Shown here: in pieces, positions 17,805 to 62,410 of the stretch
Position numbering within the stretch: position 1 is the stretch's first letter
Layout: the number at the start of each line of letters is the position of its first letter
Origin: an uncultured Flavobacteriaceae bacterium
Lineage (GTDB): Bacteria; Bacteroidota; Bacteroidia; Flavobacteriales; Flavobacteriaceae
Length of the DNA stretch: 64,000 bases
Assembly: GCA_947502975.1 (NCBI GenBank)
Contig: CANNBV010000001.1
Location: 744,001 to 808,000 of the forward strand
Direction of reading: 5' to 3'
Translations under genes and position numbers: made by a program
The notes under the pieces: model-generated
The model's input: the letters and a program-made list of their open reading frames with translations, nothing else
Told to the model about the DNA's origin: nothing
Database searches by the model: none

Positions 17805-17890
17805 CCCCGCGTTAGGGATTGAACGGCATGTTTGAAATCCCCGCCGCAGGAGGGATTGAGTAGTGAAAGCCCGACCCTTGTGGTAACGCC
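17805..17890 (-). repeat. Interspersed structured repeat, copy A
   Basis: Read on the minus strand it starts GGCGTTACCACAAGGGTCGG and ends CCCTAACGC. It begins about 10 bases after the stop codon of the saccharopine-dehydrogenase-like gene, in the same orientation. Terminal GCGTTA and TAACGC can pair. It matches copy B (52363-52449) at all but about four of 86 bases. Not part of any gene I can support; see findings. Confidence 0.85.
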
Positions 17891-17899
17891 ATAAAAAAT

Positions 17900-19264
17900 T
17901 TAATTATTTAAGGGATTATACCCTAAATACGGTACTTCTTTTTCATGAAATTGAATGCCAAAATTTTTGAGTTCCTTTAATATGGGTTGATAAATTTCTT
18001 TGGATATAGGAATTTGAACGCCTGGGCTTTTAATTTTACCATTTAAAATAGCCAGAGCTGCCATGGCAACAGGTAATCCTACGGTTTTTGCCATAGCGGT
18101 GTAGGTTTGGTCTTCACCCAAAACTACCATGTTTGCGTCTATTTGATAGTGCTTGCCGTTGAGTTTATATCCAAACTTATGGTACATTACAATCATATCT
18201 TTATCATTTTTACTCAAGGTCCAACTGTCCATTAAAATCTTTTGTAGTATTTGGGCTGGTGTTGCGTTTTTCAGGCCTACTTTTTTGTTAGGATTGAAGA
18301 TGTCTAGTTCTACAAGTTTATCCCAAACTACATCGTCTTGATCTATTTTTAGTTCATGTCTTAACTTTAATTCTACAGAATCTTTATGGCTGTAAGGTAG
18401 AAATGCATTGGTGAAATCGCGATAGCTCATGTTTTCACTATCTTCTATTGTAAAACCATCATCGGTCATACCTAAGGTAACAAAAATATGCCATGCGCGA
18501 CTAAAACCTACACGACGCATAGTGCCACGATACAAGGTTTTTACATTTTGTAAGCCATACGCATTTTGATATTTTAAAGAGTCGCGATTGGCATAGGCTT
18601 CAAACCTACCATATTTATCTACATCTAAAAATTCGGTGCGTCTGAATAAACGTTGGTATGGAATGTACTTATAGCTGCCTTCTTGTAAAAATTTTGCAGT
18701 GCCACCTTGGCCAGCTGTAACCACATTTCTTGGGTTCCAAGTGAATTTATAGTTCCATAAATTATTGTCACTCTCTGGAGCTACTAGTCCACCCGTAAAA
18801 GATTCAAATAAGATGATGGAGCCACCTTTATCTCTTATATCATCTAAAACTTGCATGGCACTCATATGGTCTATCCCTGGATCTACACCAATTTCATTCA
18901 TAAGGATAACGCCATTGGTCTTTGCTTCTTCATCAAGTGCTTGCATGTCTTTGTTAACATATGATGCCGTAACGAGGTGTTTTTTTTGTGCAACACAGTC
19001 TTTTGCTACCATAATATGGAATCGAGCCGGTAGCATAGAAATTACAATATCTGATTGTTTTATGGCCTCTACCCGTTGGGTTTCATCAAAAACATCTAAG
19101 GCTATGGCGTTAGAATTTGGGTGATTATGCAATAATGCTTTTGCATTGCTTAACTTTATGTCGCCAACGGTAACGTGTAGGTTTTCCAATTCTGATTTAT
19201 CTAGTAAATATTTTAAAAGAAAAGCTGTGGATTTTCCAGAACCAATTACTAAAATCTTTCGCAT
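17900..19264 (-). CDS. Saccharopine dehydrogenase family protein
   Basis: 454 residues with an N-terminal Rossmann motif (ILVIGSGKST, residues 4-13) and the saccharopine dehydrogenase fold, including NEIGVDPGIDHMSA near residue 125. Enzymes of this family (Lys9-like, glutamate-forming) act in lysine degradation or synthesis through saccharopine; bacterial versions also include carboxynorspermidine dehydrogenases. The length and the DPGIDHM block favour the Lys9-like branch. Divergent from the DUF423 gene with a 47-base gap. Repeat copy A follows the stop. Confidence 0.85.
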   Translation of the reverse strand: MRKILVIGSGKSTAFLLKYLLDKSELENLHVTVGDIKLSNAKALLHNHPNSNAIALDVFDETQRVEAIKQSDIVISMLPARFHIMVAKDCVAQKKHLVTASYVNKDMQALDEEAKTNGVILMNEIGVDPGIDHMSAMQVLDDIRDKGGSIILFESFTGGLVAPESDNNLWNYKFTWNPRNVVTAGQGGTAKFLQEGSYKYIPYQRLFRRTEFLDVDKYGRFEAYANRDSLKYQNAYGLQNVKTLYRGTMRRVGFSRAWHIFVTLGMTDDGFTIEDSENMSYRDFTNAFLPYSHKDSVELKLRHELKIDQDDVVWDKLVELDIFNPNKKVGLKNATPAQILQKILMDSWTLSKNDKDMIVMYHKFGYKLNGKHYQIDANMVVLGEDQTYTAMAKTVGLPVAMAALAILNGKIKSPGVQIPISKEIYQPILKELKNFGIQFHEKEVPYLGYNPLNN

Positions 19265-19311
19265 AATTATGATTTGTTGAGTAGATTTGTTAAACTATTT
19301 AAATTTTTAGA

Positions 19312-19698
19312 ATGAATAAAGTTATATTAATTACAGGAGCTATTTTAGGAGTTTTAGCAATTATTCTTGGCGCTTTTGGAGCACATGGTTTAAAAGCCCA
19401 TTTATCTGTTGAAAGCTTACAAACTTTTGAAACTGGTGTGCGCTATCAAATGTATCATGGGCTATTTTTATTGTTTATTGGTAGCACAACTTTGGTGAGT
19501 TCAGGATATAAAAACATTATTTTTTATTTGGTTATTATTGGTGTTGTTTTGTTTTCGGGTTCTATTTATGGATTGGCGACAAATCAACTCACTAATTTTA
19601 ACTTTAAATCTATTGGTTTTGTGACACCCATAGGTGGATTGTTTTTAATTGCGTCTTGGGTTGTTTTAATTGTTAATTTCATAAAATTAAAGTCCTAA
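19312..19698 (+). CDS. DUF423 small membrane protein
   Basis: 128 residues with four predicted membrane helices and the DUF423/YgdD signature GAFGAHGLKAHL near residue 21. Function unknown across bacteria. Expressed divergently from the saccharopine-dehydrogenase-like gene and 73 bases ahead of pckA, which has its own promoter box. Confidence 0.88.
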   Translation: MNKVILITGAILGVLAIILGAFGAHGLKAHLSVESLQTFETGVRYQMYHGLFLLFIGSTTLVSSGYKNIIFYLVIIGVVLFSGSIYGLATNQLTNFNFKSIGFVTPIGGLFLIASWVVLIVNFIKLKS

Positions 19699-19736
19699 AA
19701 ATACGAATTTTATATTTTTAGTTTAAAATAATATCA

Positions 19737-19744
19737 TAGTTTTG
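19737..19744 (+). promoter_or_regulatory. Probable -7 box (TAGTTTTG) of pckA
   Basis: A TAnnTTTG match 27 bases before the pckA ATG. No clear -33 box at the expected distance; the flanks are very A/T-rich. Confidence 0.45.
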
Positions 19745-19771
19745 CGTAATAATTATTTTATGGTATAAATT

Positions 19772-21388
19772 ATGACAAATTACAATCCATCTACGCAAAC
19801 GATTGCGTTGGAATCTTATGGTATTAAGAATGCTAAGGTTCAGTATCAATTATCTTCAGAAGAATTACATCGTATTACTATTGAAAAGGGACAAGGTGTT
19901 GCCGCATCTTCTGGTGCGTTAGCAGTGAAAACGGGTGAGTTTACTGGGCGTTCTCCAAAAGATAGATTTATAGTTAAAGATACTATTACTAAAGATAAAG
20001 TTTGGTGGGGAGATATTAATATTCCTTTTGATACTTCTGATTTTGATGCACTTTACAATAAGGTAGTGAGTTATCTTTCTGAAAAAGAATTATTTGTTCG
20101 TGATTGTTATGCTTGTGCTGATGATAATTATAGATTGAATATTCGTGTAATTAATGAGTATCCTTGGAGTAACATGTTTGCTTACAATATGTTTTTAAGA
20201 CCTACTTTAGAGGAACTAGATGGTTTTGAAGCTGAATGGACTGTAGTGAATGCCCCAGGATTTATGGCAAATCCTGATGTTGACGGTACCAGACAGCACA
20301 ATTTTGCAATTTTGAATTTTACAAAAAAAATTGCACTAATTGGTGGAACAGGTTATACAGGAGAAATTAAGAAAGGTATATTTTCTGCTCTGAATTTTAT
20401 ACTTCCTGTTGAAAAAAATACATTGCCAATGCATTGCAGTGCTAATGTAGGTGCAGCTGGTGATACTGCTATTTTCTTCGGATTATCTGGTACTGGAAAA
20501 ACAACGTTGTCTACAGATCCTAACCGTAGTTTAATTGGAGATGATGAACACGGTTGGACTAACGAAAATTCTGTTTTTAATTTTGAAGGTGGATGTTACG
20601 CAAAAGTGATCAATCTTTCAAAAGATAAAGAACCAGAGATTTATGATGCTATCAAGTCTGGTGCTATTCTTGAAAACGTGATTTTAGATGCTAATGGTGT
20701 GGTTGATTTTGAAGATACATCCATTACCCAAAATACAAGGGTAAGTTACCCAATAGATCATATTGAAAATATTAAAACACCGTCTGTAGGTAAGAATCCG
20801 AAAAACATTTTCTTTTTAACGGCAGATGCGTTTGGTGTTATTCCACCAATATCTAAATTAACACCAAGTCAAGCAGCATATCATTTTATTTCAGGCTATA
20901 CTGCTAAAGTTGCTGGTACAGAAGCAGGTATTAAAGAACCACAACCATCTTTTTCAGCATGTTTTGGTGCACCATTTATGCCTTTGCATCCCGCTAAATA
21001 TGCTGAAATGTTAAGTCATAAAATGATTGAAGCTGGTGTAAATGTTTGGTTAATTAATACAGGCTGGACTGGTGGACCGTATGGTGTTGGAACCCGTATG
21101 GAGTTAAAGTACACTAGAGCGATGATTAATGCCGTATTAAATGGAGATTTAGGATTGTATAATTATGATGATTACCATATCCATTCTGTATTTGGTGTGG
21201 CGCAACCTAGAACCTGTCCTGGTGTGCCAACGAGTGTTTTAAGTCCAAGAGCTACTTGGAACGATGACGAAGCATATTATACTACAGCTTTTAAGTTAAC
21301 CAACGCTTTCAGAGAAAATTTTAAAAAGTTCGAGGCACATTGTACAGAAGAAATAAGACGTGGTGGACCACAACGGTATGCATTCTAA
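19772..21388 (+). CDS. pckA: Phosphoenolpyruvate carboxykinase (ATP)
   Basis: Converts oxaloacetate and ATP to PEP, CO2 and ADP; the entry step of gluconeogenesis when growing on organic or amino acids. 538 residues, the normal length of the ATP-dependent type. Visible motifs: GEFTGRSPKDRF near residue 50, MHCSANVG near 225, the kinase loop GLSGTGKTTLS near 240 and DDEHGW near 260. Its own promoter box and a strong terminator at 21394 make it a single-gene unit. A second, unrelated PEPCK-like protein may lie at the right edge of the window. Confidence 0.97.
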   Translation: MTNYNPSTQTIALESYGIKNAKVQYQLSSEELHRITIEKGQGVAASSGALAVKTGEFTGRSPKDRFIVKDTITKDKVWWGDINIPFDTSDFDALYNKVVSYLSEKELFVRDCYACADDNYRLNIRVINEYPWSNMFAYNMFLRPTLEELDGFEAEWTVVNAPGFMANPDVDGTRQHNFAILNFTKKIALIGGTGYTGEIKKGIFSALNFILPVEKNTLPMHCSANVGAAGDTAIFFGLSGTGKTTLSTDPNRSLIGDDEHGWTNENSVFNFEGGCYAKVINLSKDKEPEIYDAIKSGAILENVILDANGVVDFEDTSITQNTRVSYPIDHIENIKTPSVGKNPKNIFFLTADAFGVIPPISKLTPSQAAYHFISGYTAKVAGTEAGIKEPQPSFSACFGAPFMPLHPAKYAEMLSHKMIEAGVNVWLINTGWTGGPYGVGTRMELKYTRAMINAVLNGDLGLYNYDDYHIHSVFGVAQPRTCPGVPTSVLSPRATWNDDEAYYTTAFKLTNAFRENFKKFEAHCTEEIRRGGPQRYAF

Positions 21389-21393
21389 TAAAA

Positions 21394-21428
21394 AAACAAC
21401 TCTCATATAATATATATGAGAGTTGTTT
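21394..21428. terminator. Bidirectional terminator after pckA
   Basis: A 16-bp perfect stem (21394-21409 with 21413-21428), three-base loop. A-tract on the left and T-tract on the right allow it to end both pckA and the convergent MORN gene (stop at 21441). Confidence 0.85.
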
Positions 21429-21440
21429 AAAGTACTTTTT

Positions 21441-21902
21441 TTACTTAGTTAATAATTGATCTTGTTCCCATTTACCTTTTTTTATAACTTCTCCAAGGGT
21501 GTTAAAAATGGTACCTTTTCCATGCTTTCTATTTTCTTTCCAAGAACCACTCCATTTGCTATTGTCTGCTAATATCATAGAGCCTTTTCCATGTCTTTTA
21601 TGTTTTTTAAATGAGCCTTCATAGCGCTGACCATTTGGCCAAATATAAGTTCCTCTTCCAGAAATGAAATAACCATTTAACTGGCCAGAATAAGAAGATC
21701 CATCATTCCAGGTAATAATACCTTTGTTTAATCGACCTCCTAAAACTTCTACATCAAAAGTTGAATTACCGAGAGTAAATTGATACCACCCATCGCTAAG
21801 CTTCTCAATATCTTGACTCTGTGGAATATTATTTAATTGTTGCGCATGTATAGTTATTACAGTTAAAAGAGCAAAACTTGCTAGTATCATATATTTTTTC
21901 AT
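21441..21902 (-). CDS. Exported MORN-repeat protein
   Basis: 153 residues with a signal peptide (1-20) and three to four MORN repeats between about 65 and 145 (YSGQLNGYFISGRGTY, YEGSFKKHKRHGKG, WSGSWKENRKHGKG). MORN repeats form elongated beta-hairpin arrays that mediate protein or lipid contacts. No enzyme motif is present. Probably periplasmic; role unknown. Confidence 0.8.
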   Translation of the reverse strand: MKKYMILASFALLTVITIHAQQLNNIPQSQDIEKLSDGWYQFTLGNSTFDVEVLGGRLNKGIITWNDGSSYSGQLNGYFISGRGTYIWPNGQRYEGSFKKHKRHGKGSMILADNSKWSGSWKENRKHGKGTIFNTLGEVIKKGKWEQDQLLTK

Positions 21903-21989
21903 AATTACTTTTTTAGTTTTTGTTTTGAGTCGTAACCAGAATTAAAATACTTACAAGATTATATCATAAGTTATAGATGTATATAAAAA

Positions 21990-22013
21990 AAGCCTAACGA
22001 AAGAGTTAGGCTT
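21990..22013 (-). terminator. Intrinsic terminator after hemD
   Basis: A nine-bp perfect stem (21990-21998 with 22005-22013) with a six-base loop. On the minus strand it is followed by a T-run (21985-21990), so it fits the end of the hemD/DUF4271 unit. Confidence 0.8.
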
Positions 22014-22043
22014 AGTTTTTAGTTATTATAAATAAAGTGTAGT

Positions 22044-22793
22044 TTATTTTCCTTTATTAACCTTTTCTATATATTTTTCTAAAGCCATTGTCATAGAAGG
22101 GGTTTCAGGTGTTGGTGCAGCAATATCTACTCGCAAACCTTTTTCTTCTACAGCTTTTATTGTCGTATTACCAAAAACAGCAATTCTAGTTTCATTTTGT
22201 TGAAAATCCGGAAAATTTTGAAATAAAGACTCAATTCCCGAAGGACTAAAAAACACTAAAACATCATAGTATACATCAGCTAGATCTGATAAATCACTTA
22301 CTACAGTTTTGTAAAATGTAGCTTGTTTCCAATCTACCCCTAAACCATTCAAAGTTTCTGGAACAAGTGGTTTTACCTTATCAGTATTGGGTAATAAGAA
22401 TTTTTCATCCTTATACTTTTTGATTAAAGGAGATAGTTCTGCAAATGTACGTTTACCCACATAGATTTTACGTTTTCTATAAACAACATATTTTTGTAGA
22501 TAGTAAGCTACAGCTTCTGACTGACAAAAATATTTCATAGAATCTGGGACTTTAAAACGCATTTCCTCAGCTACTCTAAAAAAGTGGTCAACTGCATTTC
22601 TACTAGTTAAGATGATAGCGGTATAATTGTGTAGGTCAATTTTTTGATGCCTTATTTCTTTTGCAGGGACACCCTCTACATGAATAAAAGGTCTAAAATC
22701 TATTTTTACTTTCTTTTTCTCCTGTAAATCAAAGTAAGGAGAATTCTCTATTTTAGGTTCTGGTTGAGATACTAAAATGGTCTTCACTTTCAT
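22044..22793 (-). CDS. hemD: Uroporphyrinogen-III synthase family protein
   Basis: 249 residues, two alpha/beta domains as in HemD, with the conserved TSRNAVDHFF near residue 62 and FFSPSGIESLF near 175. HemD closes and inverts ring D of hydroxymethylbilane in haem synthesis. HemD sequences diverge strongly, so the call leans on these blocks and on the DUF4271 neighbour, a pair seen in other flavobacteria. It follows the DUF4271 gene by 18 bases and they probably form one transcript. Confidence 0.85.
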   Translation of the reverse strand: MKVKTILVSQPEPKIENSPYFDLQEKKKVKIDFRPFIHVEGVPAKEIRHQKIDLHNYTAIILTSRNAVDHFFRVAEEMRFKVPDSMKYFCQSEAVAYYLQKYVVYRKRKIYVGKRTFAELSPLIKKYKDEKFLLPNTDKVKPLVPETLNGLGVDWKQATFYKTVVSDLSDLADVYYDVLVFFSPSGIESLFQNFPDFQQNETRIAVFGNTTIKAVEEKGLRVDIAAPTPETPSMTMALEKYIEKVNKGK

Positions 22794-22811
22794 AGGCTCA
22801 AAATAGTTAAA

Positions 22812-23456
22812 TTAGGCACTAAAAACCGCGTAAATAATTACATAGGGTGCGATTTCGAGAGCGCAAAGATACAAAATAAAATAGAAAAAGTTGTTTTTTA
22901 TTTCATTTTGATACATTTTAAATGTGGTTATTAAACCACTTATATTCACTACAAAAAGCAACAAAAGAATACCGTAAATTAGAGTCTCGCTGGGTGCGAT
23001 GCTAAAGATTAACAGTGCATTAATTGGTAGAAGTAATATACCTAAATAATTTTTATAACTTATTTTCTGAAAAAGGTAGTTATCTATAATAGTGTCAATT
23101 TCAAAAAGACTAGCAATTAAGCGCTCTAAAAGTACTTTAGCGAGTATAAATATACCAATACCTAATACTAGCTTAAAAATTAGAGTGACATTTATTTCTA
23201 TAGAATTGGTTAAGTGTTCAAAACACAATACACAAAAAATAGCGCTAGAAATAATTAAATTTAAAAATAGTAAACCGTCATAATAATCTAAAAACTTTTG
23301 ATCTTTACCATAAATCTTTAAATATTTCGAGTTACCAATCACCAAGATAAATTCACTAAATCGTTTAGGAGCAATACTTTTGGCAATTGCTATAGCTACT
23401 AGGCAAATAACAAGTAAAATAATATAAAGCGTATGTGCAGGTACTTCTCGAAGCAT
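22812..23456 (-). CDS. DUF4271 membrane protein
   Basis: 214 residues with about six predicted membrane helices and few polar residues between them; a basic loop follows the first helix. This matches DUF4271, found in Bacteroidetes beside hemD. Function is unknown; the linkage to hemD suggests a role near haem biosynthesis or only shared transcription. Upstream gene of the pair, with the promoter expected in 23457-23558. Confidence 0.8.
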   Translation of the reverse strand: MLREVPAHTLYIILLVICLVAIAIAKSIAPKRFSEFILVIGNSKYLKIYGKDQKFLDYYDGLLFLNLIISSAIFCVLCFEHLTNSIEINVTLIFKLVLGIGIFILAKVLLERLIASLFEIDTIIDNYLFQKISYKNYLGILLLPINALLIFSIAPSETLIYGILLLLFVVNISGLITTFKMYQNEIKNNFFYFILYLCALEIAPYVIIYAVFSA

Positions 23457-23533
23457 GGGTTAAAATTATCATAAATTTTATAGAAGTAATGAAATATTAC
23501 GAAATTTTTAAAAAAAAGAATAGCTTAAAAATG

Positions 23534-23541
23534 TACATTTG
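23534..23541 (+). promoter_or_regulatory. Probable -7 box (TACATTTG) of the glycosyltransferase operon
   Basis: A TAnnTTTG match 17 bases before the ATG at 23559, predicting a leader of about ten bases for the three-gene operon that follows. Confidence 0.5.
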
Positions 23542-23558
23542 TCTCTATATTATTTTAG

Positions 23559-24290
23559 ATGAAGGACGCTGTTGTAATCATTCCAACCTATAACGAGATT
23601 GAAAATATAGAGCATATCATAAAGGCTGTATTTTCTGAATCTAAAGAGATACACATTCTTATTGTAGATGATAATTCACCTGATGGTACTTCGGATAAAG
23701 TGAAAGCACTTCAAAAAGATTTTTCAGGACGATTACATTTAAAACAACGTGAAGAAAAAGCTGGTTTAGGTACAGCTTATATTTTAGGGTTTAAGTGGAG
23801 TTTGATTAGGGAGTACAACTATATTTTTGAGATGGATGCAGATTTTTCTCATGACCCTAAAGACTTAATTCGACTATACAAGGCATGTAGAGATGGAGGG
23901 GCAGATATGGCTATTGGTTCACGCTATATCACAGGTGTTAATGTTGTTAATTGGCCTATGAGTAGAGTTTTGATGTCTTATTTAGCCTCAAAATATGTGC
24001 GTTTTATTACAGGAATGAAGATTAATGATACTACTGCAGGGTTTGTGTGTTACAAGCGACAAGTACTTGAAACATTAAACTTAAGAAAAATCAAATTTAT
24101 TGGGTATGCATTTCAAATTGAAATGAAGTTTAAAGCCTATTTAAGGCATTTTAAAATAGTTGAAGTTCCTGTTATTTTTACAGACAGGACTAGAGGAGAA
24201 TCTAAACTAAGTTCAGGTATAATATCTGAAGCAGTTTTTGGAGTAATTTCAATGAAATTAAAAAGTTTATTTAAAAGAAAAGCATTGTAA
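23559..24290 (+). CDS. Polyprenol-phosphate mannosyltransferase-like glycosyltransferase (GT2)
   Basis: 243 residues, GT-A fold, with VIIPTYNEIENIE (residues 6-18), VDDNSPDGT and the metal-binding DADFSHDP near residue 95. This is the dolichol-phosphate mannose synthase type without the C-terminal membrane domain. It transfers a sugar from GDP- or UDP-sugar to a lipid carrier at the inner membrane. Its last base pair overlaps the pyrC start (TAATG), so translation is probably coupled. Sugar specificity cannot be read. Confidence 0.9.
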   Translation: MKDAVVIIPTYNEIENIEHIIKAVFSESKEIHILIVDDNSPDGTSDKVKALQKDFSGRLHLKQREEKAGLGTAYILGFKWSLIREYNYIFEMDADFSHDPKDLIRLYKACRDGGADMAIGSRYITGVNVVNWPMSRVLMSYLASKYVRFITGMKINDTTAGFVCYKRQVLETLNLRKIKFIGYAFQIEMKFKAYLRHFKIVEVPVIFTDRTRGESKLSSGIISEAVFGVISMKLKSLFKRKAL

Positions 24291-25636
24291 TGAAGCTAAA
24301 AAGAACACTTATAAAGAACGCTAAAATTGTAAATGAAGGGACTATTTTTAGTGGCGATATACTAATTGAAGGCGAATTTATAAAACAGATAGATACATCA
24401 ATTAGCGCTAAATGGGCAGATGTAACTATTATTGACGCAGAAGGCAAGTATGTGTTGCCAGGAGCAATAGATGATCAAGTACATTTTAGAGAGCCTGGTT
24501 TAACACATAAAGCAAATATTGCTACAGAGTCTAAAGCGGCATTAGCAGGAGGTATTACATCGTTTATCGAAATGCCAAATACAAATCCGCAAACAACTAC
24601 TCTAGAGAAATTAGAGGAGAAATTTGAAATAGCATCTAGAACATCATTAGCAAATTATTCCTTTATGTTTGGAGGGACAAATGATAATTTAGATGAAATT
24701 TTAAGAGTTGATGAAACTACTGTAGCTGGTTTAAAATTGTTTCTGGGGTCCTCTACAGGGAATATGTTGGTTGACGACCCAAAAGTTTTGGAGAAGATTT
24801 TCAAAAGCACCAATATGGTAATTTCTGTTCATTGTGAAGATGAAGCAACTATAAGAGAAAATCTCGAAAAGCATATTGAAAAATATGGTGATGATATTCC
24901 GATAGAATTACATCCGGTTATTCGAAGTGAGGAAGCATGCTATTTATCATCTTCAACGGCGATAAAACTTGCTAAAAAAACAGGAGCTAGATTGCATGTA
25001 TTTCATTTATCTACAGGTAAAGAAACCAACTTGTTTTCAAATAAGATACCATTAAAAGATAAAAAAATTACTGCGGAAGTATGTATACATCATTTATGGT
25101 TTTCAGATGAAGATTATAAAAAGAAGGGCACCAATATAAAATGGAATCCAGCAGTTAAAACAGCAGTGGATAGGGAGCAGTTATGGGAAGCGCTTTTAGA
25201 CGATAGAATTGATGTGATTGCAACCGATCATGCACCACATACTATAGAAGAAAAGAAAAACGTTTACACTAAAGCACCTTCTGGCGGACCATTAGTACAA
25301 CATGCATTACCTGCTATGTTAGAAATGTACCATAAGGGTAAAATTTCAATAGAAAAAATAGTAGAAAAGATGTGTCATAACCCAGCTATATTATTTCAGG
25401 TAGAACGCAGAGGTTATATTAAAGAAGGGTATTATGCAGATTTAGTTTTAGTAGATTTAAATAATCCATGGACGGTGCAAAAAGACAATATTTTATACAA
25501 ATGTGGCTGGTCTCCTTTTGAAGGATCAACATTTAAGTCTAGAGTAACGCACACAGTTCTTAATGGTAGCTTAGTATACCATAATTTTAAGTTTTCAGAA
25601 GTAAAAGCTGCTAAAAGATTAACATTCAATAGATGA
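24290..25636 (+). CDS. pyrC: Dihydroorotase
   Basis: Forms dihydroorotate from carbamoyl aspartate in pyrimidine synthesis. 448 residues, amidohydrolase fold with the metal-binding DDQVHFREPG near residue 62 (where HxH is usual, here the residue ahead of the conserved H is V with the D preceding), PNTNP near 97 and DHAPHT near 317. Long class I type. Overlaps the upstream glycosyltransferase by one base and the downstream DUF4296 gene by four (ATGA), forming a coupled three-gene operon that is common in flavobacteria. Confidence 0.92.
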   Translation: MKLKRTLIKNAKIVNEGTIFSGDILIEGEFIKQIDTSISAKWADVTIIDAEGKYVLPGAIDDQVHFREPGLTHKANIATESKAALAGGITSFIEMPNTNPQTTTLEKLEEKFEIASRTSLANYSFMFGGTNDNLDEILRVDETTVAGLKLFLGSSTGNMLVDDPKVLEKIFKSTNMVISVHCEDEATIRENLEKHIEKYGDDIPIELHPVIRSEEACYLSSSTAIKLAKKTGARLHVFHLSTGKETNLFSNKIPLKDKKITAEVCIHHLWFSDEDYKKKGTNIKWNPAVKTAVDREQLWEALLDDRIDVIATDHAPHTIEEKKNVYTKAPSGGPLVQHALPAMLEMYHKGKISIEKIVEKMCHNPAILFQVERRGYIKEGYYADLVLVDLNNPWTVQKDNILYKCGWSPFEGSTFKSRVTHTVLNGSLVYHNFKFSEVKAAKRLTFNR

Positions 25637-27100: not shown

Positions 27101-27153
27101 AAAACGAAATTAAAGAATTATTCAGAATCGCTGCCTATTTATACACGTATTTT

Positions 27154-28482: not shown

Positions 28483-28484
28483 AC

Positions 28485-33510: not shown

Positions 33511-33521
33511 TAAAATAATTT

Positions 33522-33627
33522 GGGCGTGCCCCATAAAGGGTCAGGCTTTCGGCAGTCGCTTTTTTGTGTTGCATAGGTGCAACAACACAAAAAGAGCTTC
33601 AACAAATGCCTCAATCCTTCACGCAAG
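33522..33627 (+). repeat. Interspersed structured repeat, copy C
   Basis: Begins GGGCGTGCCCCATAAAGGGT and ends TTCACGC. Terminal GCGTG/CACGC pair, in place of the GCGTTA/TAACGC of the other copies. A large central hairpin (about 33561-33571 with 33583-33593, stem TTTTTGTGTTG/CAACACAAAAA). It lies between the glycosyltransferase start and trmB. Confidence 0.8.
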
Positions 33628-52355: not shown

Positions 52356-52362
52356 TTATTTT

Positions 52363-52449
52363 GGGCGTTACCCGAAGGGTCGGGCTTTCACTACTCAATC
52401 CCTCCTGCGTCGGGGATTTCAAACATGCCGTTCAATCCCTAACGCGAGG
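52363..52449 (+). repeat. Interspersed structured repeat, copy B
   Basis: Starts GGGCGTTACCCGAAGGGTCG and ends AATCCCTAACGC, seven bases after the AraC-like stop, same orientation as that gene. An ACCC-GAA-GGGT hairpin sits at the 5' side. Inside, GGGATT (52413-52418) can pair with either of two AATCCC blocks (52397-52402, 52434-52439), so two alternative folds exist. Nearly identical to copy A. Confidence 0.85.
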
Positions 52450-54143: not shown

Positions 54144-54292
54144 GTATAAATTATATTTTCAAATTTAAGTTAGTCCAAATGCACCACAACTTGAGGATAT
54201 GCGTCGTTTTAATGACTTATATCCGACGTTAAACGAAGTTATCGTTTTTTCCTGACAAAGTCAAGGTTTAAAATTTTATAAACGGAAGCAAT

Positions 54293-55090: not shown

Positions 55091-55117
55091 TAATTCTAGT
55101 GTTTTTTATTTTTAATA

Positions 55118-55810
55118 TTATTGAAAGAACTCATTCTTTAAAATAATATCAAATTCAGTGAGGCTTGATGTCTCTGTAGCCGGAATTTCAACTTCAAATA
55201 ATTGAGACTCTGAGTTTGATAAGTTTCGGTAAAATTTGATTATTTGTTTAGAAGTCTTATCAATAAGTATTTGTCGAACTTCAGTTCCGTTGTTAATAGT
55301 TATTGAAGGCAATTGTCTACGTGACCCGAAATCACTAGTAAAAAAATGTTCTATATAGATGGGTGTAAAATCAACATTATCTAATATTATATTTAGCTTA
55401 GCGGGAAACAATTTTAATACGTCAAAATTAATTTCGTTATCGTCACCAACATTAGAAATTTCTTTTTGACTATCATAATAATCCCAGAATCTAATATCAT
55501 CGTTTAGATGAATCTCATATGAATTTCCTTGTCCGCTTGTTGTGAAAATAAAATCAAAATTACCAGAAGAATCAGTAATTGTCGAATCTACATATTGAAT
55601 AAAATCGTTATTACTTCCTCCAGATCCCGGTCTAAATCGGTCTTTGTATTCCGCAACAAATATTTTGTAATTTTCAATAGGAATCTCGTTCACTTCATCA
55701 TATACTTTTCCATAAACCCTAGTTTCAATGCCTTCCTCTAAAGGATCCGCTTCACAGAGGGCATTCAGAAATAGTAAAGGAAAACATAAATAAAAAAATA
55801 CTTTTCTCAT
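55118..55810 (-). CDS. Exported beta-rich protein of unknown function
   Basis: 230 residues with a signal peptide (1-20, ending ALCEA) and an all-beta region (about 25-115) resembling a carboxypeptidase regulatory-like domain (VYGKVYDEVNEIPIENYKIFV), then a second beta domain (120-225). No catalytic residues. It may be a periplasmic or surface structural protein. No specific neighbour link. Confidence 0.6.
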   Translation of the reverse strand: MRKVFFYLCFPLLFLNALCEADPLEEGIETRVYGKVYDEVNEIPIENYKIFVAEYKDRFRPGSGGSNNDFIQYVDSTITDSSGNFDFIFTTSGQGNSYEIHLNDDIRFWDYYDSQKEISNVGDDNEINFDVLKLFPAKLNIILDNVDFTPIYIEHFFTSDFGSRRQLPSITINNGTEVRQILIDKTSKQIIKFYRNLSNSESQLFEVEIPATETSSLTEFDIILKNEFFQ

Positions 55811-55841
55811 ATTCTTTTTTTAAGAGATGCAGAAAGACTTT

Positions 55842-56750
55842 TTAGGTTGCGTCAAATTTCGTGTAATTAATCAATTTTCTTGGACCTTCTAATAATACCC
55901 TAACAATTTGCAGCGTACCATCTTCTCTTGTGGCAATATGCCATTTTATCAAAGAAATAGCACCGTTTTCAATCTCTAAACCAGTAATACTTCTGGGGTG
56001 TACACAACTACCATCGTTAAAAAAAGCAATGTCTCCAGGTTCAGGAAAACGAGGGCGGTGTGTATGTCCTGCAATAGTTAAGAGGTTATTATTTTCTGCA
56101 ATCCATTTTTTTGTGCGACGCTCTACCTTAATCAATTCTTTATAATTTTTTGCAGGACTTGTAGGATCTGCAATGCCCATCACATTTAAGGGTTTCCAAA
56201 GCACACGTACCATAAATCGGCTCCATTTCCAAAAGAGGAAATTCCACCAATCTGCTTGATGTCCATGTGTTAAAAATAATTCTTGTTCAGTAGCACGGTG
56301 TTTTAAAACAATACCTTCGTGGTAGGTAATGTTTTCAAAAAGCTCAACATCTTCTCCTACTTTTGGATCGAAATAGGTCGATAAATATTTCTTTACATAA
56401 TTGGGATCTCGATATACCATATCGTGATTGCCCCATATCATATGTAAACGATTATCCTTATGAAACAACTTCATTAGCATAAAGACATTCTTGTGCGCAC
56501 CTAAAATGGATTTGAATGAAAGGTTTTCCCATAATTCATCACCATCACCTAATTCGCAGTATTGAAAACCTTCAGAATAATAATGTTTTAAAGCATGAAA
56601 ATAGATGTTTCTATTATTTGCAAAATCGTCTGCAAAACTATTATCACCTCTATGGCAATCACTAAAAAGGATGAATTTGCTATCGTCATCAAAATCAATG
56701 ATCTTAGCAGTTTTGTATGCCTTATCTAAGCGTTTTTTTGAAGAAAACAT
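55842..56750 (-). CDS. Calcineurin-like metallophosphoesterase
   Basis: 302 residues with the full metal-binding set: DCHRGD near residue 32, GDGDELWENL near 68, GNHDMVYRD near 106, the HGHQ block near 162 and GHTHRPR near 222. Family members cleave phosphomono- or diesters; similarity in style to UDP-2,3-diacylglucosamine hydrolase (LpxH) exists, but the longer linker after GNHD differs. Substrate unknown. Probably cytosolic or peripheral. Confidence 0.85.
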   Translation of the reverse strand: MFSSKKRLDKAYKTAKIIDFDDDSKFILFSDCHRGDNSFADDFANNRNIYFHALKHYYSEGFQYCELGDGDELWENLSFKSILGAHKNVFMLMKLFHKDNRLHMIWGNHDMVYRDPNYVKKYLSTYFDPKVGEDVELFENITYHEGIVLKHRATEQELFLTHGHQADWWNFLFWKWSRFMVRVLWKPLNVMGIADPTSPAKNYKELIKVERRTKKWIAENNNLLTIAGHTHRPRFPEPGDIAFFNDGSCVHPRSITGLEIENGAISLIKWHIATREDGTLQIVRVLLEGPRKLINYTKFDAT

Positions 56751-56778
56751 TAAATTACTTTAGGCTAATATAGTTAAA

Positions 56779-57537
56779 TTAGTCAGTAGTATATCCTATT
56801 TTTTCTAAAGCATAGGGCAAAATTCTACTCACAAATTGCGTGTATGCAGATGTTGATGGATGTAAGCCGTCACTCGCCACTAAATTTGGGTTTTCTAGCC
56901 CTTTTCTAGTAATATCTGTGATGAATATATAGGTGATACCATACTGTTTACAGTAATTCTCAATATGACTGTTGTATTTATTAATGTCTTGAGAAATATT
57001 GGAGTCTGCATTTCCAAAAGGTGTGAAGGCATAATCTGGAATGGAAACCACAATAAGATTATCTTTTTTGCCATTAGCATATTTTATGGCTTCACTTACC
57101 AATTCGGGAAACTCCTTTTCAAATATATCAAAAGGTCTGCGTTGGTATTGATTATTAACTCCAATGAGCAGGGTAGCTAAATCATAATCTTTGGCTAAAG
57201 TTTCATTTTCTATAGCTCCTTTTAGTGCTGTTGTTGTCCATCCTGTTCTGGCTATAACTTTTAATTCAATATCTTGATTGTCAATTTTTTCTTTAATACT
57301 GTCTTTAAGTTGCTCAGGAAACCTGCAGGTGTCGCAGACACTTTCGCCTATGGTATAACTATCGCCAAGAGAAAGTATTTTTAAACTGCTTTTAGTATCA
57401 GAGGGTGTTTCTTCTGGTTCCGTATTATCTTCAATTTCCATTTCGGGTTCTTCGACATTTAAATCAGAATTTGAAGAACATGAAATGCATAGAAAAAACA
57501 CCAAACCTACCCATAGCATAGAGAAGTTTAATTTCAT
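56779..57537 (-). CDS. GDSL/SGNH hydrolase lipoprotein
   Basis: 252 residues, lipobox cysteine 20 (LCISCSS), an acidic linker (PEMEIEDNTEPEETP), then a SGNH fold: block I LSLGDSYTIG (catalytic serine), block III GVNN near 125 and block V SDGLHPS near 225. Esterase or lipase family, here anchored to the outside of a membrane. Could act on acetylated polysaccharide, but nothing in the context shows it. Confidence 0.88.
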   Translation of the reverse strand: MKLNFSMLWVGLVFFLCISCSSNSDLNVEEPEMEIEDNTEPEETPSDTKSSLKILSLGDSYTIGESVCDTCRFPEQLKDSIKEKIDNQDIELKVIARTGWTTTALKGAIENETLAKDYDLATLLIGVNNQYQRRPFDIFEKEFPELVSEAIKYANGKKDNLIVVSIPDYAFTPFGNADSNISQDINKYNSHIENYCKQYGITYIFITDITRKGLENPNLVASDGLHPSTSAYTQFVSRILPYALEKIGYTTD

Positions 57538-57654
57538 TTTTTTGTTTTAAAGATACAACTTTGTAGCCAAAACATAAAAAAAATCCATTTTGCAGCATTT
57601 AAGTTAAGATTGCTTTTTTAACTATACGTAGCATTCTTATAGGTGCTATAGCTA

Positions 57655-58371
57655 TTATGGATTTGTAGACCACAAAGCTGCGCCCTTAAGCATAGCTCTT
57701 CTTGGAAGCCTTAAACCTGCAACAATTAATTCTGCAAAATCTTGGGGTTGGAGTACATTTTCTGAGCCTTTTTCTAGCATACCTAAACCAATGGTCATGT
57801 CAGACTCAATTGTACTTGGTGTTAACGTGTTCACTCTAATATTGTTTTTACGCACTTCTTTCATTAAGGATTCTGACATCCCAATAACTGCAAATTTCGA
57901 TGCACTATAGGCAGATATGTTGGCATTACCATTTAAACCTGCTGTTGACGATATATTAACAATATCACCTTCGTTTTGATTGATAAGATGCGGCAATACT
58001 TCTTTGGTAACATAATACATGCCCATCACATTAATTTGAATAATATCTCTCCATTGCTCAACGGGCATATCATTAAACGATCCAATGGCAGCAATTCCTG
58101 CATTATTTACCAAAATATCAATACCTCCTAAAGTATCAATAATTGTTTTGATACTATTTTTAACTTGATCGTAATTGCTAACATCAAATACTGAATATAT
58201 TGCTTTAACACCAAAGGTTTCTAATTCGTTAACTGTTGCCTTTAAAACGCTTTCGGTCCGTCCAGTTATAGCTACATCAATTCCTTCTTTCGCAAAGGCT
58301 AATGCTGTTGCTTTTCCAAGACCTCTACCGCCTCCTGTTACGATTGCTTTTTTATGTTTTAAATTGCCCAT
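57655..58371 (-). CDS. SDR, FabG-like 3-oxoacyl reductase family
   Basis: 238 residues with TGGGRGLGKA (11-20), NNAG near 87 and the YSASK pair near 150. Closest in style to FabG-like reductases but with a distinctive C-terminus (GAALWSTNP). Last gene of a minus-strand run that begins with a Crp-like regulator at 61067; 19 bases separate it from the propeller gene. Substrate unknown. Confidence 0.85.
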   Translation of the reverse strand: MGNLKHKKAIVTGGGRGLGKATALAFAKEGIDVAITGRTESVLKATVNELETFGVKAIYSVFDVSNYDQVKNSIKTIIDTLGGIDILVNNAGIAAIGSFNDMPVEQWRDIIQINVMGMYYVTKEVLPHLINQNEGDIVNISSTAGLNGNANISAYSASKFAVIGMSESLMKEVRKNNIRVNTLTPSTIESDMTIGLGMLEKGSENVLQPQDFAELIVAGLRLPRRAMLKGAALWSTNP

Positions 58372-58390
58372 TTGCTTCTTTTAATATTGT

Positions 58391-59914
58391 TTATTTTTTT
58401 GTCCAATAATCCATTACTAAAACATCGGCAATAATTGGACCTACCTTACTTACCAAATCCAAATGTGCCTTATGAAATAGATAGATTTCTAATGCGTGTT
58501 CATTTTCAAAGGTTAGAGTAAAACAATAATCAAAACCATGACTGTGCCCTTCTGTACTTTCATTGGGTCCCCATTCTAAACTAGCAATTTCTGGAATTTC
58601 ATTTTTAAGATTTACAAATGTTTGTATAGCTTCATCTACTTGTGCTTTTGTCGCGTCTTCTTTATATTTTAAATTGACTATATGCCTTAATACTTTACCA
58701 TCACGATTAATTTTAGGGGCAATTTTGTAGGTTACTATTTTTCCTAAATCAAACCTAAAAGAACCTGCAATCAGGAAGTTTTCATTTTCAATTTTATGCG
58801 ACCTTAAACCATAGTAAATAGAAAAACCAGTTTCTAGATAGTTGATGGGACTTAGCATACCATCTTTGTTTAATTTTAAGAGTTGAATACTTGCATCATC
58901 TCTAGTGCCTACTGCCAATATAGCTTCGTTATTATCTTTTGAAATCACTTCAATTCTTGTCTGCCCCTGTAGCTTTGTAGTTTCATTATCTTTTAAAACG
59001 AAATGAGGAATTAAAGCTCCTTTTTTATTCACTTTAAAAACACTCACACCATCACCGTGGTATACAAAATCCGTCTTTTTAATAAAACCATTTCTCTTAT
59101 AATATTTATGATGTCTGTGTCCAACAATGACATAATGGTTGTCATCTAAAGTTACACCAGTTACGGGATAAGCTCCAGTTAAATATCTGTCTGTGTTATT
59201 ATCACTTATGTTATTGATGTTTTTGAACGTACCATTTTGATAAATTCTAAAGCTACTTACACCATTGTCTTGAAATCCGCCAGTATATAGATATGTTTTT
59301 CCTTTTATATTATGAACAAACATGCCTATGATGCCATCAGTATGAATTTTATTGTCATCTTTCATAGACATCACATGAGTTAATTTGCCATCGTTATTTA
59401 TTTTGAAAGAACTTAATCCGGGTGTTGCTTCTAAGCCTCCAATAAACAGATATGACGATGTTTTCATATGAACAACCTGTAACGTTATAGCGGTTCCTAG
59501 ATGAGTTTTATCTGTGTCTTCAACTAGAGCAACACGTTCAATAGCACCATTATCTAAAATCTTGAAGGTCTCTATAACATTGCCATGTTTGTTAGCTACA
59601 AATAGAAAATCGGTACCGCCAATATTATCGGCCACCATGCCCCGTGCGGGACCTTTTTGTTTATAGAGTTCATGATTACTGATAGACGTAAGCTTACCAT
59701 TTTTATCTAAGCTGTAGACATCTACATTGCCGATACCACCAGCATAAACATAATGAGAATCTCCTTTTTTATAACTTGTTACAGAAACTGTATTCTTTCC
59801 AGAGATATTTTTAAAATCTTGCCTATACAGCATTAATTCATCAGAGGTTTGCCCTAAACATATTTGAGCTAAGCCAAATGCTAACAGAAGAATTGTTTTT
59901 TTAATAGTATTCAT
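58391..59914 (-). CDS. Beta-propeller (lactonase-like) fused to a Dabb stress-response domain
   Basis: 507 residues: signal peptide (1-21), a seven-bladed propeller-like region about 30-395 (lactonase or quinoprotein-like blades such as YVYAGGIGNVDVYSLDKNGKLTS), and a C-terminal Dabb/stress-responsive A/B barrel domain (about 408-507, VLRHIVNLKYKEDATKAQVDEAIQTF... GFDYCFTLTFEN). Dabb proteins are dimeric ferredoxin-like barrels, some of them involved in aromatic or polyketide transformations. The fusion is unusual to me. Role unknown. 28 bases separate it from the HbpS-like gene. Confidence 0.8.
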   Translation of the reverse strand: MNTIKKTILLLAFGLAQICLGQTSDELMLYRQDFKNISGKNTVSVTSYKKGDSHYVYAGGIGNVDVYSLDKNGKLTSISNHELYKQKGPARGMVADNIGGTDFLFVANKHGNVIETFKILDNGAIERVALVEDTDKTHLGTAITLQVVHMKTSSYLFIGGLEATPGLSSFKINNDGKLTHVMSMKDDNKIHTDGIIGMFVHNIKGKTYLYTGGFQDNGVSSFRIYQNGTFKNINNISDNNTDRYLTGAYPVTGVTLDDNHYVIVGHRHHKYYKRNGFIKKTDFVYHGDGVSVFKVNKKGALIPHFVLKDNETTKLQGQTRIEVISKDNNEAILAVGTRDDASIQLLKLNKDGMLSPINYLETGFSIYYGLRSHKIENENFLIAGSFRFDLGKIVTYKIAPKINRDGKVLRHIVNLKYKEDATKAQVDEAIQTFVNLKNEIPEIASLEWGPNESTEGHSHGFDYCFTLTFENEHALEIYLFHKAHLDLVSKVGPIIADVLVMDYWTKK

Positions 59915-59942
59915 AGTTTAAGTCTTTTCTAAATGTAGTGTA

Positions 59943-60431
59943 TTAATCTAAGATGGCAGCTGCACCAGCTTTGGCAATCGCTCGATCTTGTTCTATAGTA
60001 CCGCCACTTACACCTATGGCACCAATAATTTTACCGTTTTTAGTTTTAATAGGGATGCCTCCGGGGAATGATACAAGTCCATTATTGGTCAATTCTATAT
60101 TGTAAATAATGCCTCCAGGTTGTGTTAACTCGCCCAATTTTCCTGTATCGATATTAAAATATCTCGCAGTTTTTGCCTTTTTAATAGCAACATCAATACT
60201 CCCGAGAAACGATTCATCCATGCGTATAAATGTCTTTAAATTTGCACCAGCGTCTACGATCGCAATGTTTACTAAAACACTATCTTTTTCAGCTTTTTTC
60301 TTTGCAGCTAATAGTATTTCTAATGCTTCGTCATGAGAAATGTCATTTGTTATTTGCGCAGATATCGTATTTGAAAGTAGTAAAAGTGCTACTGCTACTG
60401 TATAAATTTTTAAATGCTTAAATGAGTTCAT
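59943..60431 (-). CDS. Exported HbpS/GlcG-family protein
   Basis: 162 residues with a signal peptide (1-24, ending AQI) and a GlcG/HbpS domain (DUF336): ALEILLAAKKKAE, GANLKTFIRMDESFLGSIDVAIKKAKTARYF and IGAIGVSGGT. HbpS binds haem and senses redox conditions in Streptomyces; others bind cobalamin-like ligands. The export signal suggests a periplasmic role. In the same run as the Crp-like regulator and the propeller/Dabb gene. Confidence 0.85.
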   Translation of the reverse strand: MNSFKHLKIYTVAVALLLLSNTISAQITNDISHDEALEILLAAKKKAEKDSVLVNIAIVDAGANLKTFIRMDESFLGSIDVAIKKAKTARYFNIDTGKLGELTQPGGIIYNIELTNNGLVSFPGGIPIKTKNGKIIGAIGVSGGTIEQDRAIAKAGAAAILD

Positions 60432-60494
60432 AATTAAGTTTAATATTTAAACTACAAAAATTATAAACCATTCTTATAAAACTGTTGAACAAGT

Positions 60495-61067
60495 TCAACT
60501 CTGCTTTTTTATTTTACTCAAAAATTCATGAGTGATTCCAAGATAACTAGCAATTTGTTTATCCGTTAGTTTTGAAGCGATATTAGGATAAGTTTTTGTA
60601 AAGTAGTGATACCGTTCTTTCGCTGTTTGGCTATGATTGCGTATTAATCGACGTTGCCATGCAACAATTGCTTTTTGAGACATTACTCTAAAAAGTTTCT
60701 CTACTATTGGAACCGACTCGTAAAGCGCTAATTTATCTGTTCTGCTAATTAAAAGCACTTTACTGTTTTCTAAAGCTTGAATATTTAGACTTGATGGTGT
60801 TTGATTCATAAAACTGTCTATATCCATTAACCACCAATCTTTAGCTGCAAAATGCAGTGTGTTTTCATTCCCTTTTTTGTCGATGGAAAAAATTCTAAAA
60901 CACCCTTCTAAAACAAACCCTTCATATTTAAAAATACGCCCTTGCATGAGTAGGAATTCTTTTTTATTGATGATGCTAGGCTTAAAATAACTGCAAATAG
61001 TATTTAAATCTTCATTAGAGATTTCGATAGTATTTTTAATATGTTGCTTTAATAAATCGTGAGACAT
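60495..61067 (-). CDS. Crp/Fnr-like transcriptional regulator
   Basis: 190 residues: cyclic-nucleotide-binding-like N-terminal barrel (about 20-115) and a C-terminal winged helix (about 140-190, DKQIASYLGITHEFLSKIKK). No Fnr cysteines. The TTG seven codons upstream falls inside the -7 box at 61086, so ATG 61067 is the start. First gene of the run to HbpS, the propeller/Dabb gene and the SDR; likely the local regulator. Confidence 0.87.
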   Translation of the reverse strand: MSHDLLKQHIKNTIEISNEDLNTICSYFKPSIINKKEFLLMQGRIFKYEGFVLEGCFRIFSIDKKGNENTLHFAAKDWWLMDIDSFMNQTPSSLNIQALENSKVLLISRTDKLALYESVPIVEKLFRVMSQKAIVAWQRRLIRNHSQTAKERYHYFTKTYPNIASKLTDKQIASYLGITHEFLSKIKKQS

Positions 61068-61085
61068 GCTTTTATCGCTGGATAT

Positions 61086-61093
61086 CAAAATTA
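61086..61093 (-). promoter_or_regulatory. Probable -7 box (TAATTTTG) of the Crp-like gene
   Basis: On the minus strand TAATTTTG, a TAnnTTTG match 18 bases before the ATG at 61067. Its position decides the start codon. Confidence 0.5.
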
Positions 61094-61134
61094 CGCATTA
61101 ATTATAGCTTTGAAATTAGAACTATAAATTTATT

Positions 61135-61166
61135 AAAAAAGCGTTTCGTTAACGAAACGCTTTTTT
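61135..61166. terminator. Perfect palindromic bidirectional terminator
   Basis: A 32-base perfect palindrome: 14-bp stem with a TTAA loop and A- and T-tracts at the ends. It follows the Met-rich outer-membrane protein gene (minus strand), separating it from the Crp-like gene. Confidence 0.9.
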
Positions 61167-61190
61167 AACTATTTAAGGCAAAAAAGGTGG

Positions 61191-62228
61191 TTAATGCATG
61201 GCGTATTGTAATCCAAACATTAAATTATAATTCTGTTTTAACTGAATACCATTTAGGTCTTGGTATAGTGCTGTGCTTATCTCCCCAGCAAATCTTAGCC
61301 CTTTCAAACTACCATTTTTAATCATGTAGTTTAATCCGAAACCAGAATTAACATAACCGCCACCAGAATTTATGGTATCTGCTGTTGTTACCATCATTGG
61401 ATTTAATACAGGACTAGTTCCATCTATTTCATCAATAAATAAGATTTCTAACCGTACAGAAACACTTAAATTTTCTCCAGCTTTAGCTGCTATCCAGTTA
61501 TTAAAACTATAGCGATTTCCAAATTTGTAATCTTGGTTGTTATCGTTAATATTAACCAAGGCATACAGTTGATGTCCTCTAGAAAACTTTTTGTATTGTT
61601 CTAAATATGTCAATCCTAATTTAGCACCAAAAGAACCTGTTCCTGTTTGCATTGGGTAGGGTAATTGTACTGCGTTACCCATAGATACTGGTAGTACACC
61701 TTTTTCTTCTATGCTTCCAGTTGGTATATTTACACCTAGTTGTGCATGCATAGTTTTTCTGTTTTTATTAAAAAAATTGTATAGCGCGCTCACCATAATA
61801 TCTCCAAATCCAGAAGTATTCGTGGAAAACTGATTGCCATTACGCATTTGCAAATTCATGTCATTTTCTAGGTAATTAGCCATCGCCATAATAGTAATTT
61901 TATCAGATGGTGCGTACATAGCACCTAGCATGTGCATGTTCATAATCATATCAATTGGAGCTACCATGTAATTAGTATGCGCGTCGCTGGATGACACATC
62001 ATTTGTGCCTTGTCGTAATTGTCGCATATCCATGGTCATGTATCGGTAAGAGAACATAAATTCTCCTTTATGGTGTGTATGGTCTCCCATTACCGAAATT
62101 GGCGCATGTCCATCAGGTCTGCTAGAAGACCATTGATTTGAATTCGATTTGTGTTTGTCGTGATTTTCGTGTTGTGCAAAAGTTAATGAGGTTGCAACAC
62201 AAAGTATTGCAATGATTATATGTTTCAT
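61191..62228 (-). CDS. Met/His-rich outer-membrane beta-barrel protein
   Basis: 345 residues with a signal peptide (1-18), a His-rich N-terminus (HENHDKHKSNS, GDHTHHKGEF) and a barrel body rich in methionine near the N-terminal half (YMTMDMRQL, MIMNMHMLGAMYA). Alternating strands and a C-terminal LQYAMH end fit an outer-membrane transporter of the MetA-pathway (phenol-degradation-like) family. The Met/His richness suggests copper or another soft metal as ligand, but no other copper gene except the small CxxxC protein is present. Confidence 0.7.
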   Translation of the reverse strand: MKHIIIAILCVATSLTFAQHENHDKHKSNSNQWSSSRPDGHAPISVMGDHTHHKGEFMFSYRYMTMDMRQLRQGTNDVSSSDAHTNYMVAPIDMIMNMHMLGAMYAPSDKITIMAMANYLENDMNLQMRNGNQFSTNTSGFGDIMVSALYNFFNKNRKTMHAQLGVNIPTGSIEEKGVLPVSMGNAVQLPYPMQTGTGSFGAKLGLTYLEQYKKFSRGHQLYALVNINDNNQDYKFGNRYSFNNWIAAKAGENLSVSVRLEILFIDEIDGTSPVLNPMMVTTADTINSGGGYVNSGFGLNYMIKNGSLKGLRFAGEISTALYQDLNGIQLKQNYNLMFGLQYAMH

Positions 62229-62259
62229 TGTAGTTTAATTATTATATATGTAATTATTT

Positions 62260-62410
62260 GGGCGTTACCACAAGGGTCGCGCTATCCGCTATATCTTTTT
62301 TGATATTAAATGTAAGTTACTATCCAAGCTGTTTTTAGTGTATTCAAACTATGGGAAGCTCAATAAATATTTGTCTATCAAAAAAGGATGCCGCTTCTAT
62401 CGCTAACGCA
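62260..62410 (+). repeat. Interspersed structured repeat, copy D
   Basis: Starts GGGCGTTACCACAAGGGTCG and ends ATCGCTAACGCA. Longest copy. Central 11-bp perfect stem CTTTTTTGATA/TATCAAAAAAG (62295-62305 with 62376-62386), enclosed by the pairing ends. It lies between the two genes possibly linked to metal handling. Confidence 0.8.

Follow-up and report, generated by a model that had tools for sequence, protein, structure and literature searches.

Four intergenic repeats in a 64,000-nucleotide stretch of DNA from an uncultured Flavobacteriaceae bacterium (GenBank assembly GCA_947502975.1, contig CANNBV010000001.1, positions 744,001 to 808,000; hereafter the window) are members of an extensive family of short, folded DNA repeats, part of which is catalogued as the Flavo-1 RNA (Rfam RF01705). 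The copies are probably a non-autonomous, palindromic mobile DNA element, resembling repetitive extragenic palindromes (REPs) and acting as a folded single strand, of which Rfam's Flavo-1 is one part, rather than a dedicated RNA gene. Observed directly were many intergenic copies, a site filled in one genome and empty in others, pairing kept while the sequence changes, and differing modules inside unchanged ends. Flavo-1 has been a candidate structured RNA since 2010 (Weinberg et al. 2010), and the sections consulted of the literature that names it give no function (PMC9723704, PMC9029176, PMC2864571). If Flavo-1 is recast as a modular mobile DNA hairpin, its annotation would change wherever it is present, and the case would caution against taking covariation as proof of RNA. 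It also sets a concrete puzzle: the inside of a hairpin is altered and the ends are left in place.

The first-pass annotation had placed four copies in the window, one on the minus strand and three on the plus strand, and the sequence at these places is as it described. The copies and their parts are the following (loci are labelled L and genomes G, each with a number).

17809..17894, minus strand: the 17.8-kb copy (site A); frame F1 with outer pair GCGTTA/TAACGC, side hairpin ACC..GGT and GGG/CCC; inner module II
33519..33624, plus strand: the 33.5-kb copy (site B); frame F1 with outer pair GCGTG/CACGC and AGG/CCT; inner module IV and a long hairpin tip
33524..33528, plus strand: 5' arm of the outer helix of the 33.5-kb copy, GCGTG; its partner CACGC lies at 33620-33624
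33551..33610, plus strand: exchangeable inner module of the 33.5-kb copy (GGCA ... TGCC); in other species this site holds module I or one of II type
52360..52445, plus strand: the 52.4-kb copy; frame F1 with outer pair GCGTTA/TAACGC; inner module II
62257..62409, plus strand: the 62.3-kb copy (site D); frame F1 with GCG/CGC and TA/TA; inner module I and a long tip
62288..62393, plus strand: module I, the interior of the 62.3-kb copy; genome G003 (L176) has module III at this site

Frame F1 is a three-way junction consisting of an outer helix P1, GCGTT(A)/(T)AACGC, a side hairpin P2, ACC..GGT, and a helix P3, GGG/CCC, followed by TT/AA and then by one of about six exchangeable inner hairpin modules that the outer frame carries. 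The outer ends are those annotated before, GCGTTA/TAACGC at 17.8, 52.4 and 62.3 kb and GCGTG/CACGC at 33.5 kb. The earlier division into copies with 11-bp central hairpins and copies with a shorter alternative has to be replaced by three kinds of interior, module II (17.8 and 52.4 kb), module IV with a long tip (33.5 kb), and module I with a long tip (62.3 kb). The 17.8-kb copy begins 9 bases past the stop codon of the open reading frame (ORF) 17900-19264 on the minus strand, and the 52.4-kb copy lies 8 bases past the stop codon of ORF 51495-52355 on the plus strand. The 33.5-kb copy lies directly upstream of a minus-strand gene whose conserved start codon reads CAT at 33508-33510; ORFs were called mechanically, and the listed start of the minus-strand ORF 32464-33534 falls inside the element.

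The first-pass annotation had not linked the repeats to a named family, but they do belong to one. With membership in Flavo-1 defined as a score at or above the gathering score of 42, the 62.3-kb copy is a member (54.6 bits, minus strand, 62414-62271), the 33.5-kb copy falls below the threshold (28.9 bits), and the 17.8- and 52.4-kb copies gave no match to the Flavo-1 model up to E=1. Flavo-1 and our copies have inner module I and its underlying helix in common, and the strand agrees. In contrast to the Rfam family, most copies here sit in a different outer frame, the three-way junction, many carry other inner modules, three of the four window copies are below the cut-off or unmatched, and the copies behave as mobile DNA.

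A covariance model, R1, found the four copies and no others in the window, and at least 122 matches at E≤0.01 in the 4.55-Mb genome from which the window comes (own genome), a lower bound as 150 of 1781 candidates were scored. The Flavo-1 model gave at least 56 own-genome matches at E≤0.001, at least 35 of them over the cut-off (150 of 901 candidates scored). A left-end pattern, GGGCGTKNCCN{4,14}GGGTCG, matched 82 times in the genome (two matches overlap, giving 81 places), and the reversed control pattern matched 0 times. Combined, these searches gave 139 places, 137 from the two models and two more from the left-end pattern. Strict rules parsed 108 copies from end to end and looser rules 117, of which at least one (L120) begins at a false start; the places beyond the parsed copies are short, divergent or in a second frame, F2. 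Three left ends that had not been parsed before turned out to be short variant or deletion forms and not autonomous long versions.

The family is unevenly spread. Matches were present in 27 of 40 genomes, comprising the own genome and relatives, with fewer in the family and few in the rest of the order; within the genus all 12 genomes, the own genome included, carried copies, from 10 to 106 each. In a wider sample 45 of 296 Bacteroidota genomes had matches, and here the per-genome counts are lower bounds as 16 candidates were scored per genome. Searched as an exact pattern, the combination of frame F1 and module I occurred in 106 stretches of named genomes; for 80 of these the titles were all Flavobacteriaceae or unclassified Flavobacteriales (Algibacter, Tamlana, Jejuia, Hyunsoonleella, Tenacibaculum and others), with the exception of one Pedobacter. 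No match to the 52.4-kb copy was found among 72,556 plasmid and 50,697 phage records. The left-end pattern is present in eleven viral contigs (L395-L405). Our literature searches found nothing on flavobacterial intergenic or miniature repeats, and a search on the string GGGCGTTACC returned matches that were unrelated by title.

The copies are intergenic: 95 of the 108 parsed copies overlap no ORF of 70 amino acids or more. Of 60 copies, 30 have a stop codon no more than 20 bases away on the 5' side, compared with 7 of 48 for a start codon (p=0.0001), and convergent spacers outnumber divergent ones, 32 to 15 (p=0.019). The 5' boundary is TTTG|GGCG, the four bases TTTG being conserved at 89, 94, 83 and 87% (n=108), and past the 3' end 50 of 108 copies have a weaker motif, T-N-Y-N-N-GC, compared to 5 of 108 in a control stretch. 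The flanks do not pair with each other (n=108). Judged by eye from their translations, with no family search, the genes in six intervals between close pairs of copies resemble ordinary host genes.

Paired and covarying ends, which the first-pass annotation had described for the window, extend well beyond it. Neither outcome that would have refuted that annotation, a lack of further copies or unpaired ends, occurred. Of the two inner pairs of the outer helix, one is TA in 109 and CG in 8 of the 117 own-genome copies and the other TA in 111, AT in 4 and GC in 2, although the extraction demanded at least 6 of 8 matching end pairs and so leans towards paired ends. In an alignment of 27 copies (A2), most with the tip trimmed, 88.1% of cells are paired and 12 of 21 pairs vary on both sides. 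The covariation score of this alignment was reached by 0 of 500 shuffles, a result that related rows can inflate, and slid controls were 33-49% paired, with the structure drawn from the same rows, so that this control is biased in favour of the structure. Individual pairs exchange as expected of helices: pair 31-73 is GC in 24 and AT in 3 copies, pair 32-72 GC in 21, CG in 4 and other in 2, pair 36-68 TA in 19 and AT in 8, and pair 40-64 GC in 17, AT in 4, CG in 4 and other in 2.

Six sites were compared with their orthologous positions, three from the window (A at 17.8, B at 33.5 and D at 62.3 kb) and three from one other stretch (E, G and H), the relatives varying by site. Site E is filled in the own genome and empty in all eight relatives read, and copies therefore insert. 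Site A is filled in three of five relatives (L192, L194 and L195), empty in L191 and reduced to a remnant in L193. Site B is filled in the own genome and in 7 of 11 relatives, with no element parsed in L180, L187, L188 or L190; site D is filled in the own genome and in four of five relatives and lacks the element in L178. At site G no element was present in L207, and at site H it is decayed or absent in L212-L214. At the 52.4-kb site the two flanking genes were not matched side by side in relatives. Parts of this copy recur in other species at 97-100% identity over 62-83 bases, with many further matches at lower values down to about 71%, and gene stretches in the same search matched at about 64-82%. 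The uneven copy number, the filled and empty site, the remnants and the near-identical copies between species together argue for mobile DNA. Thus, of the two possibilities first suggested for these repeats, a mobile element or a structured RNA, copy number, the filled and empty site and near-identity across species uphold the mobile part; the RNA part is the less likely of the two.

Among the 117 own-genome copies, module types, assigned by simple patterns, were I in 40, IV in 18, II in 15, V in 15, III in 13 and II' in 12, with 4 unclassified. At all five compared sites that are filled in several species (A, B, D, G and H) the module type differs between species. Site A holds module II in the own genome, module I in L192 and L195, and another module in L194 (L194 read by eye). 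Site G holds module III in the own genome and in L205, L206 and L208, and a II'-type module in L204 (L205 and L206 read from the alignment); site H holds module IV in the own genome, L210 and L215, and module II in L209 and L211. At site D, L176 retains GCG/CGC and TA/TA with module III in place of I, and L174 and L175 have GGG/CCC. Site B carries module IV in the own genome, L181, L183 and L184, module I in L182, L185 and L186, and a II-type module in L189 (types read by eye), and all eight filled copies, with these three kinds of module, keep the GCGTG/CACGC ends. Elsewhere such ends were present in 1 other of the 117 own-genome copies and in three copies from another genus (L323-L325). Ends this rare make eight separate insertions at site B implausible, so that the ends were inherited and the inside changed. 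Moreover, L181, L182, L183 and L189 share an identical side hairpin around modules IV, I, IV and II type, respectively. Only the module is replaced, P1 and P2 being spared, and the shared sequence that limits the exchanged tract amounts to about 8-11 bases on its left side and 8-9 on its right.

Frames and modules also combine. Frame F2, Rfam's original frame (pattern AGCTATTTCC ... GGGGCT), is represented by five own-genome copies, four with module I and the fifth (L410) with module IV; the module IV copies in F1 (L060) and F2 (L410) differ at one base over their shared stretch. What the two frames have in common next to module IV is limited to about GCTTTC and TCAAT.

The unexpected feature is module exchange over some 6 to 11 shared bases, for which the main rival explanation is short-tract gene conversion. 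Module change could result from short-tract conversion, from annealing of hairpin strands, or from small mobile hairpin modules that are lost and re-inserted at the tip. It is possible, though we lean against it, that swapping is ordinary homologous gene conversion between repeat copies with nothing specific to hairpins. The own genome has copies of every module type as possible donors, and donor and recipient frames are alike. RecA, however, requires homology of about 25 bp; the retained ends and side hairpin at site B confine the tract to shorter borders, and F1 and F2 share still less beside module IV, all of which counts against ordinary RecA conversion. Tentatively, Flavo-1 could be a two-part mobile hairpin whose inner cassette is swapped in place by a dedicated single-strand mechanism using 6-11 border bases on each side, through an undescribed recombinase or through excised hairpin DNA that anneals at the replication fork; we regard this specific proposal as doubtful.

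Some copies show other alterations of their interior. In L143 the copy is down to the frame, with nearly all of the inner module deleted. Tips or side hairpins of L018, L025, L041, L056, L175 and L184 contain other palindromes (CATTGCGAGGAG.., CATTCCTGC..GCAGGAATCC and CCTGCCTGCCGGTAGGCAGG), which look as if hairpins had been inserted into hairpin loops.

As a mobile DNA element, the family might work as follows. The folded minus strand, which is Rfam's strand, would become accessible as single-stranded DNA and be the active form; a trans-acting enzyme, not evidently a REP transposase, would handle it. New copies would land in AT-rich spacers, often right after stop codons, and an incoming hairpin could replace the module of a resident copy via short shared flanks, about GGGC-TTTC and CAAT-CCC. 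The preferred strand is suggested by mismatches. In helix P3a and the inner pair of module I we counted 16 A.C against 2 G.T mismatches on the plus strand (p=0.0013; P3a pooled from 225 elements and the inner pair from 121, rows taken as independent), which correspond to wobble pairs on the minus strand, a sign that the folded minus strand is the form recognized, as single-stranded DNA or as RNA.

Several observations weigh against reading the copies as mobile DNA acting as a folded single strand. That the active strand is folded would fit RNA as well as single-stranded DNA, and in the outer helix the mismatches are even (33 A.C to 38 G.T), a count that we set aside because most rows are out of register. 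A target-site duplication is missing (z=0.6 for direct repeats compared with permuted flanks, n=108), and the stretches fetched showed neither a transposase nor an autonomous version. The empty sites cannot be read to the base because the species are too far apart (matches of about 64-82%, as above). Site B is kept in 8 of 12 species, so resident copies persist for long, which a purely selfish repeat does not need. Signals on orientation relative to replication conflict: local GC skew corrected for coding direction indicates a replication-strand bias (intercepts -0.030, n=117, and -0.0425, n=104), and replichore counts in two complete genomes show no bias, with 12 of 21 and 14 of 24 copies on the G-rich strand (hand count).

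The persistence of site B beside the same start codon also fits a structured RNA, a small RNA or a leader or trailer element, transcribed from the minus strand and bound by protein, with copies that spread by duplication and are kept for regulation. A curated Rfam model, the strong covariation and the 16:2 wobble bias towards the minus strand in two helices are likewise what such an RNA would yield. We nevertheless consider it unlikely. RNA folding stability was not unusual for six strands of four copies elsewhere in the genome, which folded no better than shuffles (z -1.18 to +0.88), and the element is missing or decayed at the orthologous positions in L180, L187, L188, L190, L191, L193, L178, L207 and L212-L214. 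Furthermore, apparent leaders carry the element on either strand, which argues against a strand-bound RNA role: at 33.5 kb it precedes a minus-strand start codon, and at site H the element, on the plus strand, sits between a promoter-like box, TTGTATCTTTG, which we liken to the Bacteroidetes promoter consensus, and the start codon. A remark in the consulted part of a transcriptome study, that Flavo-1 matches seemed indistinctly sense or antisense to transcribed regions (PMC9723704), points to the same absence of a strand rule and also argues against such a role.

Closer to a mobile element is the possibility of a REP mobilized by a REP-associated tyrosine transposase (RAYT, Y1_Tnp). The copies resemble REP and REPIN elements with their RAYT (TnpA-REP) in being short intergenic palindromes of high copy number without target duplication whose folded single strand would be active. 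They differ in being larger, in having a three-way junction and exchangeable modules, and in that no linked RAYT was found. REPs carry a GT[AG]G tetranucleotide tag, some subclasses differ, and Bacteroidetes have a RAYT subclass with atypical flanking structures, according to the sections consulted of PMC6006769; the tag is absent from the foot of our element, which has TTTG instead. Y1_Tnp was the only protein family tried as a helper. The own genome does contain two Y1_Tnp genes that have their own palindromes, and over the 40 genomes copy and Y1_Tnp counts correlate (rho 0.41, p=0.008, uncorrected for kinship). Within the genus, however, rho was -0.43 and not significant, 9 of the 27 copy-bearing genomes, including G003 with 78 copies, had no Y1_Tnp match at E≤0.001, and none of 30 Y1_Tnp loci (of 64 matches, each locus spanning about 1.5 kb on each side) holds a genuine copy by pattern, one false positive aside. 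The REP transposase is thus unsupported as a linked helper, and we consider this rival very improbable. Our literature search found nothing pairing Flavobacterium with RAYT.

The palindromes of the two own-genome Y1_Tnp genes (L031 and L032) read CTGGCGCTAGT...ACTAGTGCC and differ from the present element; next to the element at site E lies a similar repeat, CTGGCGCTAG.

A function as transcription terminators or stabilizers of mRNA 3' ends, which the excess of upstream stop codons and of convergent spacers would suit, is very improbable, since no copy is overlapped by any of the 25 sites listed in 17000-34000 and 52000-63000 as terminator-like (a GC-rich hairpin with a T run after it), the copy at site G comes after a separate terminator-like hairpin (by eye), and sites B and H precede start codons.

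Two further known systems invite comparison with the mobile hairpin that we favour. Like the miniature inverted-repeat transposable elements (MITEs) of bacteria (RUP, NEMIS/Correia and ERIC), our copies are non-coding intergenic repeats of the 70-300-bp class that lie beside genes. Target-site duplication is usual in MITEs, though not universal. MITEs have terminal inverted repeats of 15-30 bp, according to the section consulted of one source (PMC3733652), whereas the outer helix here is 5-6 bp, there is no target duplication, and no parent transposon was found.

The attC sites of integrons act as folded single strands, have a variable terminal stem, often follow a stop codon closely and have the ends RYYYAAC ... 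GTTRRRY. The present copies share the variable terminal stem and the frequent position right after a stop codon, and would share the folded single-strand site. Their ends, GCGTTA ... TAACGC, however, place GTT and AAC the wrong way round for R''/R' boxes, and the copies are scattered and occur in both orientations. A separate repeat of about 125 bp, ending CAATTAATTATACACGGTGTTG, follows the 52.4-kb copy at window positions 52509-52634, and a locus in a relative (L411, G001:C18) holds six repeats like it between small genes that run mostly in one direction, like a cassette array. We take this repeat and the sites at L411 to be integron attC-like.

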